From Acidobacteriota bacterium (GTDB taxonomy: Bacteria; Acidobacteriota; Thermoanaerobaculia; Multivoradales; JAGPDF01), in NCBI GenBank assembly GCA_014584695.1, contig JACTMI010000046.1, positions 1 through 64,000 on the forward strand: a stretch of DNA of 64,000 bases, in the 5' to 3' direction. Positions 1,953 to 23,545 of this stretch are shown one piece after another. The notes below the pieces were generated by a model, which worked only from the letters and a program-made list of their open reading frames with translations, did not search any database and had not been told where the DNA came from. Made by a program: the position numbers and the translations under genes. Each line of letters begins with the position of its first letter. The first letter of the stretch is position 1.

Positions 1953-1960
1953 GATACACT
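1953..1960 (+). promoter_or_regulatory. Candidate -10 element for maeB (possibly leaderless)
   Basis: GATACACT lies only 6 bases before the malic enzyme ATG (1967). If used as a -10, transcription would start at or next to the start codon. This fits the absence of a Shine-Dalgarno sequence before this ATG. No clear -35 was found. Confidence 0.35.
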
Positions 1961-1966
1961 TTTCCC

Positions 1967-4237
<2,271 letters not shown>

Positions 4238-15035: not shown

Positions 15036-16036
15036 CCGTCCTGGTCACCGGCGGCACCGGCTTCCTGGGCCGCCGGCTGGTCGAGCGCCTGACAGCGGAC
15101 GGTCACCCACTGCGGCTGCTGGTGCGTCCCTCGTCGTCGCGCGCTCGCTTCCCCGACGGCGTCGAGCTGGTCGAAGGAGACGTCACCCATCGCGCCAGCC
15201 TCGAGCGGGCCGCCACCGGCTGCGAGGCGGTGGTTCACGCCGCGGCGCTGGTCAAGATCCTGGCGCCCGCGGCCGAATACGAGCGCGTCAACGTCGCCGG
15301 TCTCCACCATCTGCTGGCGGCGGCGGCCGGCGGCGGTGTCCGCCGGATCGTCTACGTCTCGAGCTTCATCGCCCTCGGCCCGACCGAGGCCGCGCCGGGG
15401 GGCATGCTCGACGAGCACGCGCCGGCCGTCGAGCGCCGGTTCATCAACGACTACGAGCGGACCAAGACCCGCGCCGACGCGAGCGCGCGGCGGGCGATCG
15501 AGACCGGCGCGCCGCTCGCGGTCGTCTACCCCGGCATCCTCTATGGCCCGGGCGAGCTGACCGAGGGCAATCTCGTGGTGCGGCACCTGCTCGACCTCGC
15601 GCACGGCCGACTGCCCGCCCTGCTCGGCCGCCCCGAGCGGCGCTGGAGCTACGCCCACGTCGACGACGTGGCGGCCGGCGTGGTGGCCGCGCTCGACCGT
15701 TTTCGCCCCGGCGCGCGCTACGTCCTGGGCGGCGACAACGTCACGCTCGGCGACTTCTACGCGCGGGTTGCCGAGATCGCCGGCATCCAGGTGCCCGCCT
15801 GGCGGCTGCCCGATCCGGTCGCCCGGCTGCTCGGCGCGGCGATGAAGGCGTGGGCCCGGCTCGCCGGTGGCACGCCGCGCCTGACCCCGGACCTGGTCGA
15901 GATCTACCGCCACGACTGGGCCTACGACTCGACGACCGCGATGCGTGAGCTCGACTATCGCCCGCGCGGCCTGGCGCAGGGCCTGGCCGAGACCGTGGCC
16001 TGGCTGCGGACGCGGCCCGAGTGGCCCCGCCGGTGA
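15032..16036 (+). CDS. NAD(P)-dependent SDR, dihydroflavonol reductase/HpnA-like
   Basis: A 334-residue extended SDR with GGTGFLGRRLVERL, VELVEGDVTHRASLERA, VVHAAALVKI, VYVSSFIALG and YERTKTRAD (Tyr-X3-Lys). The GDVTDRASLERA-type stretch and the PGILYGPG segment resemble the dihydroflavonol-4-reductase/HpnA group rather than the nucleotide-sugar enzymes before it. Substrate is unknown; being next to an isoprenoid-alcohol kinase-like gene, a lipid-linked substrate is possible (inference). The GTG at 15032 overlaps the upstream TGA and has GGAGGGG at 15023-15029. Confidence 0.78.
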   Translation: MTVLVTGGTGFLGRRLVERLTADGHPLRLLVRPSSSRARFPDGVELVEGDVTHRASLERAATGCEAVVHAAALVKILAPAAEYERVNVAGLHHLLAAAAGGGVRRIVYVSSFIALGPTEAAPGGMLDEHAPAVERRFINDYERTKTRADASARRAIETGAPLAVVYPGILYGPGELTEGNLVVRHLLDLAHGRLPALLGRPERRWSYAHVDDVAAGVVAALDRFRPGARYVLGGDNVTLGDFYARVAEIAGIQVPAWRLPDPVARLLGAAMKAWARLAGGTPRLTPDLVEIYRHDWAYDSTTAMRELDYRPRGLAQGLAETVAWLRTRPEWPRR

Positions 16037-17364
16037 GCGGGCTCTCCGCCGGCGAGCTGGCGCGCAAGCTGGTCCACATCGGGGTCGGCGGCCTCGCCTT
16101 CGCCGTCGCGCCGCTCGGCTTTCGGGGCGCCGTCGCCTGCGCGGTGGCCGCCATCTTCCACAACGCGGTGCTGCTGCCCCGCTACGGCGGCCGCCGGCTC
16201 TGGCGGGACGCCGAGAGCGCGCGCGGCCACTCGCTCGGCATCGTGCTCTACCCGGTGGCGGTGCTGTTGCTGCTGCTGCTCTTCCATCGTCGGCTGGAAG
16301 TGGCGGCCGCGGCGTGGGGGCTCCTCGCTTTCGGCGACGGCACGGCCTCGCTGGTCGGCATGACCCTCGGCCGCGGCAACCCGTTGCCCTGGAATCCGCG
16401 CAAGAGCTGGGCCGGAACGCTCGCCTTCACGCTGTTCGGCGGCGCCTTCGCCGCGCTCCTGCTGCTGTGGACCGCGCCGGGACGCTACGAGCCCGGCTTC
16501 GCGGTCGCGATCGGCTTCGCCGCGGCGACTCTCGCGGCGCTCGTCGAGTCGCTGCCGGTGGGCCTCGACGACAACTTGGGAGTGCCGCTGCTCGCCGGCC
16601 TCTGGCTCTATTGCCTGACCTCGACCGCCGGTGGCTGGGGGGTGCTCGTCACCCCGACGGCGCTCGCCGCGACCGCGCTCGGCCTGGCGGTCAACCTCGC
16701 TCTGGCGCTCGCCGCCTGGGCCGTCGGCGGCGTCAACCGTTCGGGAGCGGTCGCCGGGGTCGTGCTCGGCACGGCGATCTGGGCGGGGCTCGGTCCCCGC
16801 GGCTTCGCCCTGCTCTTCGCCTTCTTCGCCCTCGGCACGCTCGCCACCCGCGTCGGCTACGAAGCGAAGGCGAAGCGCCGCTTGGCGCAAGCGGACGGTG
16901 GCCGGCGCGGCGCTCGCAACGCGCTCGCCAAGACCACGGTGCCGGCGCTCGCGGCGCTGCTCGCGGCGGCGAGCGGCCAGATGGAGCTCTACGCGCTCGC
17001 GGCGGCCGGCGCGCTGGCCGCCGCGGCCGCGGACACCTGCGCCTCGGAGATTGGCCAGGTGTACGGGCGGCGGACCTTCCTGGTGACGTCGCTGCGGGCC
17101 GTTCCCCCCGGCACCGAGGGCGCGGTGTCGCTCGAAGGGACGCTCGCCGGGATCGCGGCTTCGTTCGCGGTCGGGGGGCTGGGGGCCCTCTTGGGCCTCT
17201 ATCCGCCGTCCGGAGTGCTGGTGGTCGCGGTGGCGGCCTTCGCCGCCAACACCCTGGAGAGCCTGCTCGGCGCCACCCTCGAACAGCGCGGCCTGCTCGA
17301 CAACGAGGCGGTCAACTTCCTGAACACGCTGGCCGGCGCCGGGATCGCCGCGGCCCTCGCCTGA
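16033..17364 (+). CDS. Polyprenol/phytol kinase-like domain fused to DUF92 membrane protein
   Basis: About 443 residues, a polytopic membrane protein with two halves. Residues 1 to about 210 resemble the CTP-dependent dolichol/phytol kinase family (VTE5/SEC59 type): LARKLVHIG at the start, then GDGTASLVGMTLGRG and RKSWAGTLAF. The second half is DUF92 (TMEM19/VTE6 type): VNRSGAVAGVVLG, TCASEIGQVYGRRTFLVTS, GTEGAVSLEGTLAG and NTLESLLGATLEQRG. In plants VTE5 phosphorylates phytol and VTE6 phosphorylates phytyl phosphate, so one polypeptide could recycle an isoprenoid alcohol to its diphosphate. That activity is inferred. The GTG at 16033 makes a 4-base overlap like the rest of this operon; 16021 is the alternative. 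Confidence 0.82.
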   Translation: MSGLSAGELARKLVHIGVGGLAFAVAPLGFRGAVACAVAAIFHNAVLLPRYGGRRLWRDAESARGHSLGIVLYPVAVLLLLLLFHRRLEVAAAAWGLLAFGDGTASLVGMTLGRGNPLPWNPRKSWAGTLAFTLFGGAFAALLLLWTAPGRYEPGFAVAIGFAAATLAALVESLPVGLDDNLGVPLLAGLWLYCLTSTAGGWGVLVTPTALAATALGLAVNLALALAAWAVGGVNRSGAVAGVVLGTAIWAGLGPRGFALLFAFFALGTLATRVGYEAKAKRRLAQADGGRRGARNALAKTTVPALAALLAAASGQMELYALAAAGALAAAAADTCASEIGQVYGRRTFLVTSLRAVPPGTEGAVSLEGTLAGIAASFAVGGLGALLGLYPPSGVLVVAVAAFAANTLESLLGATLEQRGLLDNEAVNFLNTLAGAGIAAALA

Positions 17365-18480
17365 TCAGCTTCCAGCCGCGAGCGGCTCGGGCCGCACGAG
17401 CGCGGCGAACAGCTCGACCAGCGCCGGATCCAGGAACGTCCCGGCGCGGTCGCGCAGGATCTGCAGCGCCTCCTCCGCGGTGGCGCCGCCGATCGAGCGG
17501 ACGGTGTCCCAGCTGTCGGCCACGGCGACGATGCGGGCCACCGCCACCGGCAGGCGCGGTGTGTCGAGGCGCGGGTAGTTGGGCTGGCCGTCGAACCGGA
17601 GGTGGTGCTCGTAGGCGGCGAGCACGGCGACCTCGGGCACCCCGTCGAGGGCCGCCAGGCGGGCTGCCCCCCGTGCTGGGTGGAGCCGGCGGCGCAGCGC
17701 GGCGTCCTCGCCCGGCGGCGCCGGTTCGAGGTGACCGACGTCGTGAAGCAGACCGGCCATACCCAGCTCGTCGAGGGCGTCGCCGGAGAGGCCGAGCGCC
17801 TGACCGAGCCGCAGCGACGCGAGCGCCACGGCGAGGCCGTGGACGAAGGCGCGATCGTCGCTGTCGGCGACCTCGAGGTGGGGCGGTTCGAGGCGGAGCC
17901 CCTGTGCCGCGCGCGCCAGGCGCCCGATCATCGCGCGCAGGCGCTCGACCCGCGTCGCCGTGCCGCGCGCGATCCCGATCAGCTCCTGCCGCGCCGCGAG
18001 GAGTTGCTCGGGCGAGGCGAAAGGTGGCCGGTCGCTCGACCCGCCGCTAGCCTCTTCATGGGCGTCCCCACCCAGCAACCCCGCCTTGCCGACCTGCAGG
18101 TGCGCGGATCCCTGCGGCCCGGCCGCGCTGGCGCACGAATCGAGGAAGCCGCCGAGCTCGGCCGCGTCCAGGCCCCGCAACAGCACCAGGCCGCCGATGC
18201 CGTGGCGGGCGAAGCCCTGCATCAGCCCGCGCGTCCAGGTCACCTCCTCGGGCAACGCCTGGTGGTCGACGAGCAGCTGTCCTTCGAGCGAGAGCAGCGA
18301 AAGCTCGTCCGATTCGGCTCCCTGGAGCCAGGCTTCGAAGGCCGCGATCGTCCGCTCGACCGCGCGATGCACCTGGGGATGCGCGGAGGGGTAGACCGCG
18401 CGCTGCTGAAAGGCGGCGCCCAGATCGACGACCAGGCGCTCGGCCAGCGCCGACGGATCGCGAGTCGCGTCGCCGCTCAC
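17365..18480 (-). CDS. HD-GYP-like phosphohydrolase with unassigned N-terminal domain
   Basis: A 371-residue protein. The C-terminal 190 residues look like an HD-GYP domain: LLHDVGH (HD pair), LHPARGA, AYEHH, VAVADSWDTVRS. Deviations are clear: HHExxxGxGYP reads HHLRFDGQPNYP, with Glu changed to Leu and GYP changed to NYP plus an insertion, and the usual Lys after HDIG is His. HD-GYP enzymes hydrolyse cyclic-di-GMP; activity here is doubtful. The N-terminal 120 residues (YPSAHPQVHRAV, then RHGIGGLVLLRGLDAAELGGFL) resemble the N-terminus of the upstream HEAT protein. It overlaps that gene by 4 bases, so the two are co-translated. Confidence 0.8.
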   Translation of the reverse strand: MSGDATRDPSALAERLVVDLGAAFQQRAVYPSAHPQVHRAVERTIAAFEAWLQGAESDELSLLSLEGQLLVDHQALPEEVTWTRGLMQGFARHGIGGLVLLRGLDAAELGGFLDSCASAAGPQGSAHLQVGKAGLLGGDAHEEASGGSSDRPPFASPEQLLAARQELIGIARGTATRVERLRAMIGRLARAAQGLRLEPPHLEVADSDDRAFVHGLAVALASLRLGQALGLSGDALDELGMAGLLHDVGHLEPAPPGEDAALRRRLHPARGAARLAALDGVPEVAVLAAYEHHLRFDGQPNYPRLDTPRLPVAVARIVAVADSWDTVRSIGGATAEEALQILRDRAGTFLDPALVELFAALVRPEPLAAGS

Positions 18481-20542
18481 GAGGCTTCCTCGGCTGGCGC
18501 CGCGGCGAGCGCCTCGGCGATCGCGCGGATCTCCGGAATGCGGGATCGCCGGCCGCGATCGATCCAGGGGCCACGGGCCGCCGTGGGGTAGGACTCGAGC
18601 GACCGATAGAGGGCGAGGCGCTCTTCCACGGCGATCGGTGGAAAGGCGAAGCGCGCGGCGAAGCGGCCGAGTCGGTCGAGCGCCGCCGGATCGCCGATCG
18701 CGGCGAGCGCTCGAATCGCCTTGAGTCGGGTGGCGCGGCGGCGGCCCCAGAAATCGCGGGCGGCGACCAGCGCCGCGAGCGGCTCGACCGCCTCCACCAT
18801 GCGGTGCTCGCCGGCGAGCTCGATGGCTTCTTCGGCGAGCAGCGGGTCACGGTGCTCGAGGGCCTTGCGCAGCAGCTCGCGCGGCACCTCCTGGTCGAAG
18901 GCAAAGAGGTTTCGGATCGCCTCGAGACGGACACGCAGATCGCCGTGCTCGGCGCAGCGGCGCACCGCCGGAACCGAGCCGGGGTCGCCGATGCGACGCA
19001 GCAGCAGCAGCATGTTGCGCACGACGTACCAACGCGGATCGGAGAGCAGGTGGGTCGCGTCCCGAACCACCATCGGCCCGAGCCCGGCGAGCAGATCGAG
19101 CAGAAGGTGGCGCAGGCCGCGGTCGTCCGTCTCCGCGAGGATGCCGATCAGGTGGCGGCTGGCGTTCGCCCCGAGCCGTCGCAGGAGCAGGCCGGCCTGG
19201 ACGAGCCCCTCGTCGGAGACCTCGGGCAGTACCGCCGCCAGCGCGACGATCGACTCGCGCCCCGACAGGCGCTCGGCCGCGCGCCGAAAGGGCTGCTCGG
19301 CCCCCTCCTCGCGAGCGGCGCACGGCCGGCGCCGAGCAGCCGGCGATATCCGGATTCCAGACGGTGGAGCACCGCGGGGAGTCTGTCGGCAGCGATCTCG
19401 GGGCGCTCGGCCAACTCGAGCAAGGCCTGAGTCGCCGCCCGGTCGATCGCGCCGGGAGCGAGCTCGCGGGCCACCTCGGCCGCCCCCGGTCCTAGCGGCA
19501 CGGTGGCGGGACCCTCCGGCAGCTCCAGCACGATCTCGAGTCGCTGCTCGGGTGGATGATCTTCGAGAAATGCGTCGAGGTCGGCGGCCGCGAAGGCGCG
19601 ACGCAGGCGGGTCAACCGCTCCGGATCGAAGCTGCGCGCGCGCTCTCCCGCAGTCGACCGCGAGGACTCGACGGCGCTGCGCACGCGCTCGGCCTCCGCG
19701 GGCGAGAGCGCCGCCAGCAGCGGGGCCAGCGCCGCCCGCGCGTCGGCGGTGGTCGACAGCGCGGCCGCCAGTGCCTGCGCCATTCGATCTCGCCGCTCGA
19801 GCGGCAGGCGCTCGATCAGGCGCGCGAGGCCGGCGGCGCGCTCGGCGCCTGGCGACGCCGCGTAGTCCTCGGCCGCCGCGATCAGCGCGGCGGTGATCGT
19901 CGCCGCCGCCCAGGGCTGGCCCTCGAGCGGCCCGGAAGCTCCCCCCTCGAGCAAGGAGCGCAGCAGCTCGATCGCCGTCCTTCCGCTGGCGAGCCAAGCC
20001 GCCAGCACGTCCCCCGGGAGCGCGCCGCTCGCGATCAGCCGGCGCGCCAGGCGCTCCCACAGCGCCCCGCCTTCGATCCCCTCTTGCTCCTGGTCGGCAT
20101 CGACCAGCGCCACCGCCGAATAGTCCATGTCGCGCGCGCGCAGCCGGCTGAGACCCGCGGCGCCGAGCTCGGCGGCGAGCGAGCCCGCGGCGCGCGCTCG
20201 CCGGCTGTCGAGCGCGAGGGCGCGGAGCAGGATCTCGAGCTCGCGGGGCTCGACTCCGGGCTCGACGGTCAGCCCGGCGGCCCCGCGTCGTCGCAGCAGC
20301 TCGGCCAGCCGCTGCGCGGAAGAAGAATCGTAGCGGCGCTCGCCGCAGAGCAGCGCCTCGCGCGTCGGCACGAGCTCGACCGGTCCGGTCTCCTCGAGCA
20401 GGCGCGCCAACGACTCGATCCCCTTGGCCAGACCGGCGACCGCGCTCGGATGGCCCGTGGGATAGGCGGCGAGCGCCCGCCACGCGATCGCGAGATCGCG
20501 CAGGAACGCGGTGAACAGCGAATCGACCGGGTCCGCGGCCAA
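18477..20542 (-). pseudogene. HEAT-repeat protein gene with a frameshift
   Basis: Two overlapping frames make one protein of about 690 residues. From the TTG at 20540-20542 the frame reads well to about 19310, ending in LESGYRRLLGAGRAP. A -1 change then gives a coherent continuation (RAAERLSGRESIVALAAVL onward) to the stop at 18477. Restoring one G in the five-G run (minus strand, 19301-19305) would join them. The N-terminus (YPTGHPSAVAGL, RRRGAAGLTVEPGVEPRELEILL) resembles that of the HD-GYP partner. The C-terminal part is HEAT-like helices (LGANASRHLIGIL, LSDPRWYVVRNMLLLLRRIGDP), probably a protein-binding scaffold. It may be a real pseudogene, a sequencing error or a phase-variable tract. 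Confidence 0.75.
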
Positions 20543-20727: not shown

Positions 20728-21720
20728 ATGAGGAAGCTCGGTCTCTACGTCCAGCTGTCGCGTCCCTTCACGCTGCTGCCGCCGCTGATCGGCATCGTCT
20801 CCGGCGCGGTCTGCGCCTGGGGCTCGGTCCACAATCCGGATCCGGCGCGCGAGCTGACCGCCTCGGTCTTGCTCACCGTCGCTTTGGGGTCGCTGTGCGC
20901 GAGCTTCCTCAACGCGGCGTCGAACGCGATCAACCAGATCACCGACCTCGAGATCGACCGGGTCAACAAGCCCGGCCGGCCGCTGGTGACCGGCGCGCTC
21001 TCGCTCGCCCAGGGCTGGCGCTTCACCTGGCTGTTCTACCTGCTCGCGCTGATCCCGACCTGGCTGGTGGTGGTCCATCCCTACACGACCTGGGGCGAGA
21101 AGCTCCGCGCGCCGCTCGTCTCCCACCAGACGTTCTTCATCTATCTCGCGGGCTTGATCTTCACCCTGGTCTACTCGGTGCCGGCGTGGGGACGGACCAA
21201 GGCGCGCGGCATGTGGGCCAATTGGACGATCGCCGTGCCCCGAGGCTGTCTGCTCAAGGTCGCCGGCTGGGCGATGGTGGCCAACATCTGGCACTGGGAG
21301 CCGTGGGCGATCGGCGTCATCTTCATGCTCTTCCTGGTCGGCGCCAGCTCGACCAAGGACTTCGCCGACATCGAGGGCGACCGCGCCGGCGGCTGCCAGA
21401 CGCTGCCCATCCTCCACGGCCCGAAGCGGGCCGCCTGGATCATCGCGCCCTTCTTCGTCTTCCCCTGGCTGCTGCTGCCGCTGTTCGCCTACTGGCCCGA
21501 TCCGCAGAACCCGGAGCACGCGATCCTCACCGGTCACCCGCTCTTCCTGGCCCTGCTCGGCAGCGGCTTGACGATCTGGGGCTGCTACACGGTCTACATG
21601 CTGCTGCGTGACCCCGAGTCCCTGACCCGCACCGAGAACCACCCCAGCTGGCGCCACATGTACCTGATGATGATGGCCGCGCAGATCGGCTTCGCGGCGG
21701 CCTACCTGCTGCCGCACTGA
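20728..21720 (+). CDS. UbiA family prenyltransferase
   Basis: A 330-residue polytopic membrane protein with both Asp-rich motifs of the UbiA superfamily: NQITDLEIDRVNKPGRP (NxxxDxxxD) in the first cytoplasmic loop and KDFADIEGDRAGG (DxxxD) in the second. About nine hydrophobic segments are visible. These enzymes move a polyprenyl group from its diphosphate to an aromatic ring or a glycerol phosphate. The acceptor cannot be chosen from sequence; the close spacing of the N/D residues and overall length fit (geranylgeranyl)glycerol-phosphate, chlorophyll or quinone-type members. It is a single gene with its own promoter, about 3.4 kb from the DUF92 kinase-like gene. Confidence 0.9.
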   Translation: MRKLGLYVQLSRPFTLLPPLIGIVSGAVCAWGSVHNPDPARELTASVLLTVALGSLCASFLNAASNAINQITDLEIDRVNKPGRPLVTGALSLAQGWRFTWLFYLLALIPTWLVVVHPYTTWGEKLRAPLVSHQTFFIYLAGLIFTLVYSVPAWGRTKARGMWANWTIAVPRGCLLKVAGWAMVANIWHWEPWAIGVIFMLFLVGASSTKDFADIEGDRAGGCQTLPILHGPKRAAWIIAPFFVFPWLLLPLFAYWPDPQNPEHAILTGHPLFLALLGSGLTIWGCYTVYMLLRDPESLTRTENHPSWRHMYLMMMAAQIGFAAAYLLPH

Positions 21721-21787: not shown

Positions 21788-23545
21788 GTGCTGACGCCGG
21801 ATTCGCTGGCGACGCCGCGCGCCGCCTGGATGAGGGCGCCGGAGGCCGGGACCGAGGCTTGGTGGCGCTTCACCGACCCGCGGGGCGCGCTCGTCGCGCG
21901 GACGGCGGGGGAGCTGCCGGCGCTGCTCGTCGAAGTCGAGCGCGCGGCGGCGCGGGGTCTCTGGGCGGTCGGACACGTCGACTACGAAGCGGCTCCGGGT
22001 TGCGATCCGGCGCTCGCCGTGGTCTCGCCCGCGCGCTCGCCGGTCGCCGCGTTCGGGCTGTTCGACGCGCCGGCGGTGACCGGACCGCCCGACCGCGCGA
22101 GCGGGCTGGCGGCGATCCTCGGTCTCGAGCCGGGGATCTCCGCGACCGCGCACGCCGCGGCGGTGGCCGAGGTGAAGGCGGCGATCGCTCGCGGCGACAG
22201 CTATCAGGTGAATCTCACGCTGCCGATGACCGGCCGGCTCGAAGGCTCGCCGGAGGCGCTCTTCGCCCATCTCGGACCCGCCTCGCGCGCGCCCTACGCG
22301 GCCTACCTCGACCTCGGCGCGCGCGCTCTGCTCTCGCTCTCGCCCGAGCTCTTCTTCGAGCGCGACGCGGGCCGCCTGCGCATGCGGCCGATGAAGGGGA
22401 CGCGGCCGCGCGGGCGTTACCTGGAGGAAGACGAGGCGGTCGCGGCCGATCTCGCCGGCGCGGCGAAGGACCGCGCCGAGAATCTGATGATCGTCGACAT
22501 GGCGAGAAACGACCTCGGTCGCCTGGCTCGCGCCGGCTCGGTCGAGGTGACGCGGCTGTTCGAGCTCGAGCGCTATCCGACCGTCTGGCAGTTGACCTCG
22601 ACCGTCGAGGCGGCCGCCGGCGCCGGCCTGCCGGAGATCTTCGGCGCGCTCTTCCCCTGCGCGTCGGTGACCGGGGCGCCCAAGGCGGCAACAATGGGGA
22701 TCATCGCGCGGCTCGAGCGGCGGCCCCGCGGCGCCTACTGTGGCGCGATCGGCTACGTGGCGCCCGGCGGTCGGGCCCGCTTCTCGGTGGCGATCCGCAC
22801 CGCGGAGATCGATGGCTCGTCCGGAAACGTCTGCTATGGCGTCGGCGGCGGCGTGGTCTGGGATTCGGACGCGGCCGAGGAGTGGCGGGAGTGCCTCGCC
22901 AAGGCGGCCGCGCTCTCGGCGCCGGAGCCCGCCGGGCTCTTCGAGACCCTCGCTTGGCGACCGCACCGCGGCGCGCCCCGGCTCGAACGTCACCTCGGGC
23001 GGCTGGCCGCTTCGGCCCGCCACTTCGATCTGCCGTTCGACGCCGAGGCCGCGCGCGAGCGTCTCGCCGCGGCGGTCGTCGGCCGCTCCGAGGCCCAGCG
23101 GGTGCGCCTCGAGCTCTCCCCCGACGGTCGGCTGGCGGCCTCGGCCGAGCCCTTCCGTCGCGAGCGGCGCCCCTGGCGGGTCGCTCTCGCCAGCCGGCCC
23201 GTGGACGGCGCGGACCCGGCGCTCTGCCACAAGACGACCCGCCGCGCCGTCTACGACCAGGCGCTCGCCGAGGCGCGCCGCCGCGGGCTCGACGAGCCGC
23301 TGCTCTGGAACCGGAGCGGCGAGCTGACCGAGGGGGCGCGGACCAACCTGATGCTCGAGATCGACGGCCGGTGGCTGACGCCGGCGCGACGGTGCGGTCT
23401 GCTCGCCGGGGTCTTTCGCCAGCAGCTGCTGGAGACGGGGCGGGTCGAGGAAGCGATCCTCCGCCCCGCCGATCTCGCGCGGGCCGAGCGGGTGGCGCTG
23501 GTCAACGCGCTGCGGGGCTGGATCCCGGCGCGGGTGGTCGGTTAG
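21788..23545 (+). CDS. pabB: Aminodeoxychorismate synthase component I fused to aminodeoxychorismate lyase
   Basis: A 585-residue fusion. Residues 1 to about 385 are a chorismate-binding domain: GDSYQVNLTLPM, MRPMKGTRPRG, ENLMIVDMARNDLGR, FPCASVTGAPKAATM and CYGVGGGVVWDS. The remaining part is a class IV PLP aminotransferase-like domain (LFETLAW, CHKTTRRAVYD with the likely PLP lysine, LWNRSGELTEGARTNL). PabB makes 4-amino-4-deoxychorismate using ammonia from a PabA glutaminase, and PabC converts it to p-aminobenzoate for folate. This PabB-PabC order is a known fusion. PabA is not in the window. Start is GTG with a modest ribosome binding site. Confidence 0.92.
   Translation: MLTPDSLATPRAAWMRAPEAGTEAWWRFTDPRGALVARTAGELPALLVEVERAAARGLWAVGHVDYEAAPGCDPALAVVSPARSPVAAFGLFDAPAVTGPPDRASGLAAILGLEPGISATAHAAAVAEVKAAIARGDSYQVNLTLPMTGRLEGSPEALFAHLGPASRAPYAAYLDLGARALLSLSPELFFERDAGRLRMRPMKGTRPRGRYLEEDEAVAADLAGAAKDRAENLMIVDMARNDLGRLARAGSVEVTRLFELERYPTVWQLTSTVEAAAGAGLPEIFGALFPCASVTGAPKAATMGIIARLERRPRGAYCGAIGYVAPGGRARFSVAIRTAEIDGSSGNVCYGVGGGVVWDSDAAEEWRECLAKAAALSAPEPAGLFETLAWRPHRGAPRLERHLGRLAASARHFDLPFDAEAARERLAAAVVGRSEAQRVRLELSPDGRLAASAEPFRRERRPWRVALASRPVDGADPALCHKTTRRAVYDQALAEARRRGLDEPLLWNRSGELTEGARTNLMLEIDGRWLTPARRCGLLAGVFRQQLLETGRVEEAILRPADLARAERVALVNALRGWIPARVVG

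Follow-up and report, generated by a model that had tools for sequence, protein, structure and literature searches.

A conserved bacterial gene pair encoding HD-GYP-like and HEAT-repeat proteins with homologous N-terminal domains

Two overlapping genes in the window (by which we mean the whole 64,000-nucleotide stretch analyzed) encode an HD-GYP-like protein and a HEAT-repeat protein, and the N-terminal domains of these two proteins (hereafter N-domains) are homologous. The pairing of the two genes is conserved well beyond this genome, and our best inference is that the pair constitutes a two-part signaling module.

Gene layout and the shared N-terminal domain

An initial annotation, made from the sequence alone, described two reading frames, several short motifs, and a 4-bp overlap between the genes, all of which are found in the sequence. 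The genes flanking the pair lie on the other strand, so the pair forms a two-gene unit of its own. Features of the locus are given below in order of position.

16021–17364, strand opposite to the pair: DUF92 gene, flanking the pair.
17365–18480, minus strand: HD gene, 371 aa, GTG start, encoding an N-domain and a divergent HD-GYP-like domain (Pfam HD_5, E = 3.3e-9; HD, E = 2.1e-8).
17395–17868, minus strand: HD-GYP-like domain (residues ~205–362), with metal ligands retained, the HDxGK lysine replaced by H250, and the HHExxDGxGYP signature reading HHLRFDGQPNYP.
18088–18456, minus strand: N-domain of the HD protein (residues ~9–131), supported by profile comparison and predicted structure.
18477–18480, minus strand: GTGA, the 4-bp overlap of the HEAT stop and the HD start, the commonest arrangement among relatives.
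18477–20542, minus strand: HEAT gene, TTG start, one frameshift, ~688 codons with both frames joined as one gene.
18477–19322, minus strand: HEAT repeats of the C-terminal part (Pfam HEAT_2), encoded in the shifted frame.
19300–19340, minus strand: frameshift and apparent ~40-bp deletion compared with the intact genes in related genomes.
19335–20076, minus strand: middle part of the HEAT protein, helical by prediction (confidence low to moderate), without a Pfam match.
20129–20539, minus strand: N-domain of the HEAT protein (residues ~2–138), homologous to that of the HD protein.
20728–21720, strand opposite to the pair: UbiA gene, flanking the pair.

The DUF92 gene and a fused chorismate-binding/aminotransferase gene (21788–23545) lie around the pair in the window, and their counterparts also flank the pair in a relative from the same genus (L066:7109–9385 and 1957–3987), indicating conserved local synteny.

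Homology of the N-domains had been proposed from motifs matched by eye, namely YPSAHP and YPTGHP followed by RHGIGGLVLLRGLDAAELGGFL and RRRGAAGLTVEPGVEPRELEIL, and profile–profile comparison aligns these same motifs to each other. The proposal of a common N-terminal domain was borne out by profile searches, with matches far above chance. BLASTP of the two 150-residue N-termini gave 26% identity (E = 7e-05, for that single comparison), while alignment of the two N-domain profiles with hhalign gave E = 5.8e-16 (probability 98.6%), and another comparison gave E = 1.1e-14. When the HEAT N-domain profile was searched against the whole 4.35-Mb genome, it picked out exactly two places, at E = 2.2e-51 for the HEAT gene and E = 1.4e-11 for the HD gene. 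Profiles rebuilt without the rows from the window cross-matched the window's two proteins (E = 8.4e-12 and 5.1e-11), and produced zero matches to shuffled sequences.

Structure prediction, which had been suggested as a check, returned the same order of secondary-structure elements for both N-domains. AlphaFold models were built from 67 sequences for the HD protein and 56 for the HEAT protein, the latter modeled on an intact relative (L065). The HD-protein N-domain is predicted as helix-helix-strand-strand-helix-strand-helix-strand; the HEAT N-domain follows this order, but with the second strand split and two extra short helices (pLDDT mostly ≥88 in each). The domain has its own conserved signature, a Y and an [HN]P.

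When 43 N-domains were compared with Pfam and NCBIfam, no family was matched in more than two members, and the top scores, each for a single member, were E = 0.013 (Pfam) and E = 0.0046 (NCBIfam). With no model for the family in either database, only the HD or HEAT part of such a protein can give it a name. Fold searches returned lists filled by those same parts; the absence of N-domain folds from the lists is no evidence for a new fold. Scattered profile matches to PDB sequences (octarellin, a cytochrome c555 trimer, and rhodopsin) were judged spurious. DUF3391 (PF11871), the N-terminal region of some HD-GYP proteins, matched 14 of the 67 HD members weakly; in the two proteins for which the match was located, it lies outside the N-domain, on the linker helix that precedes the HD domain, and it was rejected as the identity of the latter.

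A tree of 124 N-domains sets HD and HEAT copies apart: the label changes 4 times, compared to 41 in shuffles, and the well-supported branches force only one such change. The tree is compatible with an origin of both from one ancient duplication, which may have taken place. Distances among HD and among HEAT N-domains correlate across loci (r = 0.85), a value that shared genome ancestry alone could give.

A HEAT-repeat gene had been annotated beside the HD gene, and such a gene (18477–20542) is indeed present and conserved, but its frame is interrupted near 19,310–19,340, which the initial annotation overlooked. Its length of 2066 bp is no multiple of 3; at the interruption the codon-position GC pattern moves together with the frame, and about 14 codons are absent relative to aligned intact genes of related genomes. 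The HEAT frame is open in relatives G003, G004, and G006, and the HEAT part on the shifted side is still conserved (E ~1e-107 to relatives). A recent lesion would account for the break, and so would a fault in sequencing or assembly. A frameshift together with ~40 missing bp would also fit a decaying pseudogene and a non-functional local pair, a possibility that we take seriously but consider somewhat unlikely, given that both frames are open and conserved away from the break, that the stop–start overlap with the HD gene is undamaged, and that an error in sequencing or assembly would leave the same picture. In one other MAG (G029; L058 and L072), an in-frame TAG lies inside the HEAT gene.

The HD-GYP-like domain and the HEAT protein

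The best sequence and fold matches of the HD domain are HD-GYP structures, including V-cGAP3 and PmGH; the Pfam HD_5/HD match covers residues 205–354. Reference residues were taken from PmGH (PMC4159591) and compared across an alignment of 67 family members. Seven of the eight PmGH metal ligands (H189, H221, D222, H250, H276, H277, and D305, with E185 as the exception) correspond to H214, H246, D247, H267, H292, H293, and D322 in the window protein; the first six are invariant in the 67 members and the last is kept in 66. Equivalents of the catalytic pair D183 and K225 are present in 60 and 63 of the 67 members, respectively. The window protein keeps the former (as D208) as well as the D308 equivalent, and has His250 at the K225 position, which is Tyr in its closest relatives. 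At the E185 position the family mostly has Tyr, which places it in the Y/F subfamily of HD-GYP proteins as defined in PMC4159591, and the window protein has Arg.

The HHExxDGxGYP signature is absent. The family shows an HH(M/L)xxDxxGYP-like motif, with mostly Met or Leu at the Glu position and Tyr-Pro retained, and we therefore file the HD protein as HD-GYP-like and not as a canonical member. A stretch behind the HD motif is also shortened. In common with the HD-GYP phosphodiesterases PmGH (4mcw), PA4781 (4r8z), and V-cGAP3 (5z7c), the family has the HD fold, the seven metal ligands, the Asp183-type acid, and the size of the catalytic domain. It differs from all three in the altered signature and E185 position, and in carrying an unassigned N-domain in place of REC, GAF, or DUF3391, along with a fixed HEAT partner gene. 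The top-scoring structure for the HD domain is Bd1817 of Bdellovibrio (3tm8; Z = 21.3 over 208 residues), an inactive HD-GYP protein (PMC4159591) whose sequence match spans only the linker and the HD domain.

An inactive closest fold, the family-wide replacement of the HHE glutamate, the shortened stretch behind the HD motif, and the loss of K225 from the window protein and its closest relatives (the PmGH K225 alanine mutant is inactive; PMC4159591) could together indicate that the HD domain is non-catalytic. It would then act in nucleotide binding or protein interaction, making the pair, in the window's family at least, a scaffold or receptor. We regard this as unlikely: the window protein retains seven metal ligands and the D183 and D308 equivalents, nearly all family members retain K225, and replacing GYP-motif residues of PmGH changed little (PMC4159591). 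Because K225 is His in the window and Tyr in close relatives, activity within the window's own family is nevertheless doubtful and the enzyme there may be weak or purely regulatory, and the lost catalytic lysine combined with the HEAT frameshift means that the window's own copy of the pair may be weakened. GGDEF proteins are encoded in all five pair-bearing genomes tested, with 22 matches in the window's own genome, which makes a cyclic-dinucleotide substrate class plausible.

The HEAT protein matches Pfam HEAT_2 in three stretches (E = 2.2e-15), and a HEAT match is present in all 56 of its relatives. Fold matches to alphaRep and other HEAT/ARM structures identify its C-terminal half as a solenoid, whereas the middle region (residues ~156–400) is predicted to be helical with low to moderate confidence. 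HEAT solenoids bind proteins, which suggests a scaffold or regulatory role. The likeness to alphaRep designs (Z ~17) and to PR65, the A subunit of PP2A, lies in the repeat architecture of the C-terminal alpha-solenoid only; the bacterial protein adds an N-domain, and its partner is an HD-GYP-like protein, not a phosphatase.

Conservation and genomic context of the pair

A scan with the HD alignment, using one genome per species, yielded 80 loci. These were ranked by similarity to the window HD protein, so that the sample is non-random, and the partner gene had no role in the selection. The HEAT gene lies directly upstream in 61 of the 64 full-length HD relatives with upstream sequence, most commonly with a gap of −4 bp; over more than ten loci, the order is the same and the spacing is usually −4 or −1. 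The three exceptions are L106, where an N-domain HEAT frame lies upstream but outside the distance rule, L109, with an upstream N-domain protein that lacks a HEAT-profile match, and L103, with another N-domain gene ~5 kb downstream. A HEAT partner was found in 0 of 7 HD relatives that lack the N-domain region (Syntrophomonas and allies). A survey of other genomes, as proposed in the initial annotation, finds the pair spread over about ten phyla: Acidobacteriota, Gemmatimonadota, Nitrospirota, Myxococcota, Thermodesulfobacteriota, Methylomirabilota, Zixiibacteriota, Armatimonadota, Planctomycetota, and one MAG labeled Pseudomonadota. An N-domain search of 16 genomes gave 45 strong matches in 13 of them, with 40 of the 45 in adjacent pairs, and some genomes carry two to four pairs. 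Neither the window HD protein nor the intact HEAT–HD partners from relative L065 matched a PADLOC anti-phage model.

The genomic surroundings of the pair vary. At least eight loci, mostly from Gemmatimonadota (L101, L108, L124, L125, L131, L132, L136, and L139), have it lodged between trpB and trpA of the tryptophan operon, where the frames often overlap. Two Nitrospirota loci (L090:659–3636 and L098:1109–4033) have dnaB, a Memo-like gene, and a PilZ gene preceding the pair in the same direction; these neighbors were identified in L090, and in L098 by similarity. The PilZ gene, of the c-di-GMP-binding type, lies just upstream of the pair in both, and as a neighbor it is confined to a few Nitrospirota loci. 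One Nitrospirae genome (G066 contig C39, L182) has two pairs in tandem and four altogether. In several Deltaproteobacteria, Geobacteraceae, and Methylomirabilota loci (L075, L077, L081, L082, L085, L094, and L133), the HD gene has a convergent gene close downstream that matches the HEAT profile. In a planctomycete (L180; genome G064), the HD gene and a gene for a 567-aa N-domain protein are non-adjacent, ~5 kb apart, and the HEAT-protein profile used here does not match the latter protein.

A few N-domain HEAT proteins stand alone, with no HD gene next to them in the sequence read (L177:2140–3693 and L178:1771–4017). Such proteins, and the N-domain's own conserved signature, would suit a ligand-binding or localization module through which both proteins answer the same signal or share a site with no direct binding to each other. 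This seems rather unlikely to us, since near-obligate adjacency and translational coupling are more typical of the subunits of one complex. That the adjacency is a mere relic of a tandem duplication of the N-domain, with the two proteins acting independently, is very improbable despite the homologous domains and a tree that permits one duplication: order and tight spacing are kept over about ten phyla, the pairing survives changed settings (the Gemmatimonadota trp operon compared to the stand-alone operon in the window), and without a link unlinked copies should be common.

A putative two-subunit signaling complex

The HEAT and HD genes may encode subunits of one signaling complex. The HD protein would be a divergent HD-GYP-type metal phosphodiesterase of the Y/F, probably binuclear, subfamily, acting on a cyclic dinucleotide (for example c-di-GMP or cGAMP), and the HEAT protein would be its scaffold or regulatory subunit. 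The N-domains would either join the two proteins or put both on the same partner, and the solenoid could recruit a target or regulator. We prefer this reading, a cyclic-dinucleotide phosphodiesterase of two subunits, enzyme and scaffold, joined through homologous N-domains, to the others considered and see its chances as evenly balanced; the physical pairing, activity, substrate, and scaffold role are all inferred. It draws on the homology and equal predicted element order of the N-domains, the adjacency counts (61/64 and 40/45, against 0/7 where the N-domain is lacking), the separation of the tree by role, the HD-GYP fold matches, the kept metal ligands, and the GGDEF proteins and PilZ neighbors. 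Counting against an enzyme of this kind are the absence of the signature Glu from the HD family and of the K225 equivalent from the window protein, and the inactivity of Bd1817, the best fold match. The stand-alone HEAT proteins that carry the N-domain and the broken HEAT gene of the window also count against it.

No description of a HEAT/HD-GYP pair turned up in searches of open-access papers, and the results point to a widespread signaling unit that is seemingly undescribed in that literature. More tentatively, with the balance tilting slightly against it, the pair may represent an undescribed class of obligate two-subunit second-messenger phosphodiesterases in roughly ten phyla, the HD-GYP-like enzyme and the HEAT scaffold being paired by a new N-domain family. 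Studies of HD-GYP enzymes usually treat them as lone polypeptides to which a sensor domain is fused. If the two-subunit reading is true, a whole branch of these enzymes would instead be hetero-complexes with a partner that shares their N-domain and adds a protein-binding solenoid, an arrangement that possibly allows local control of cyclic dinucleotides.
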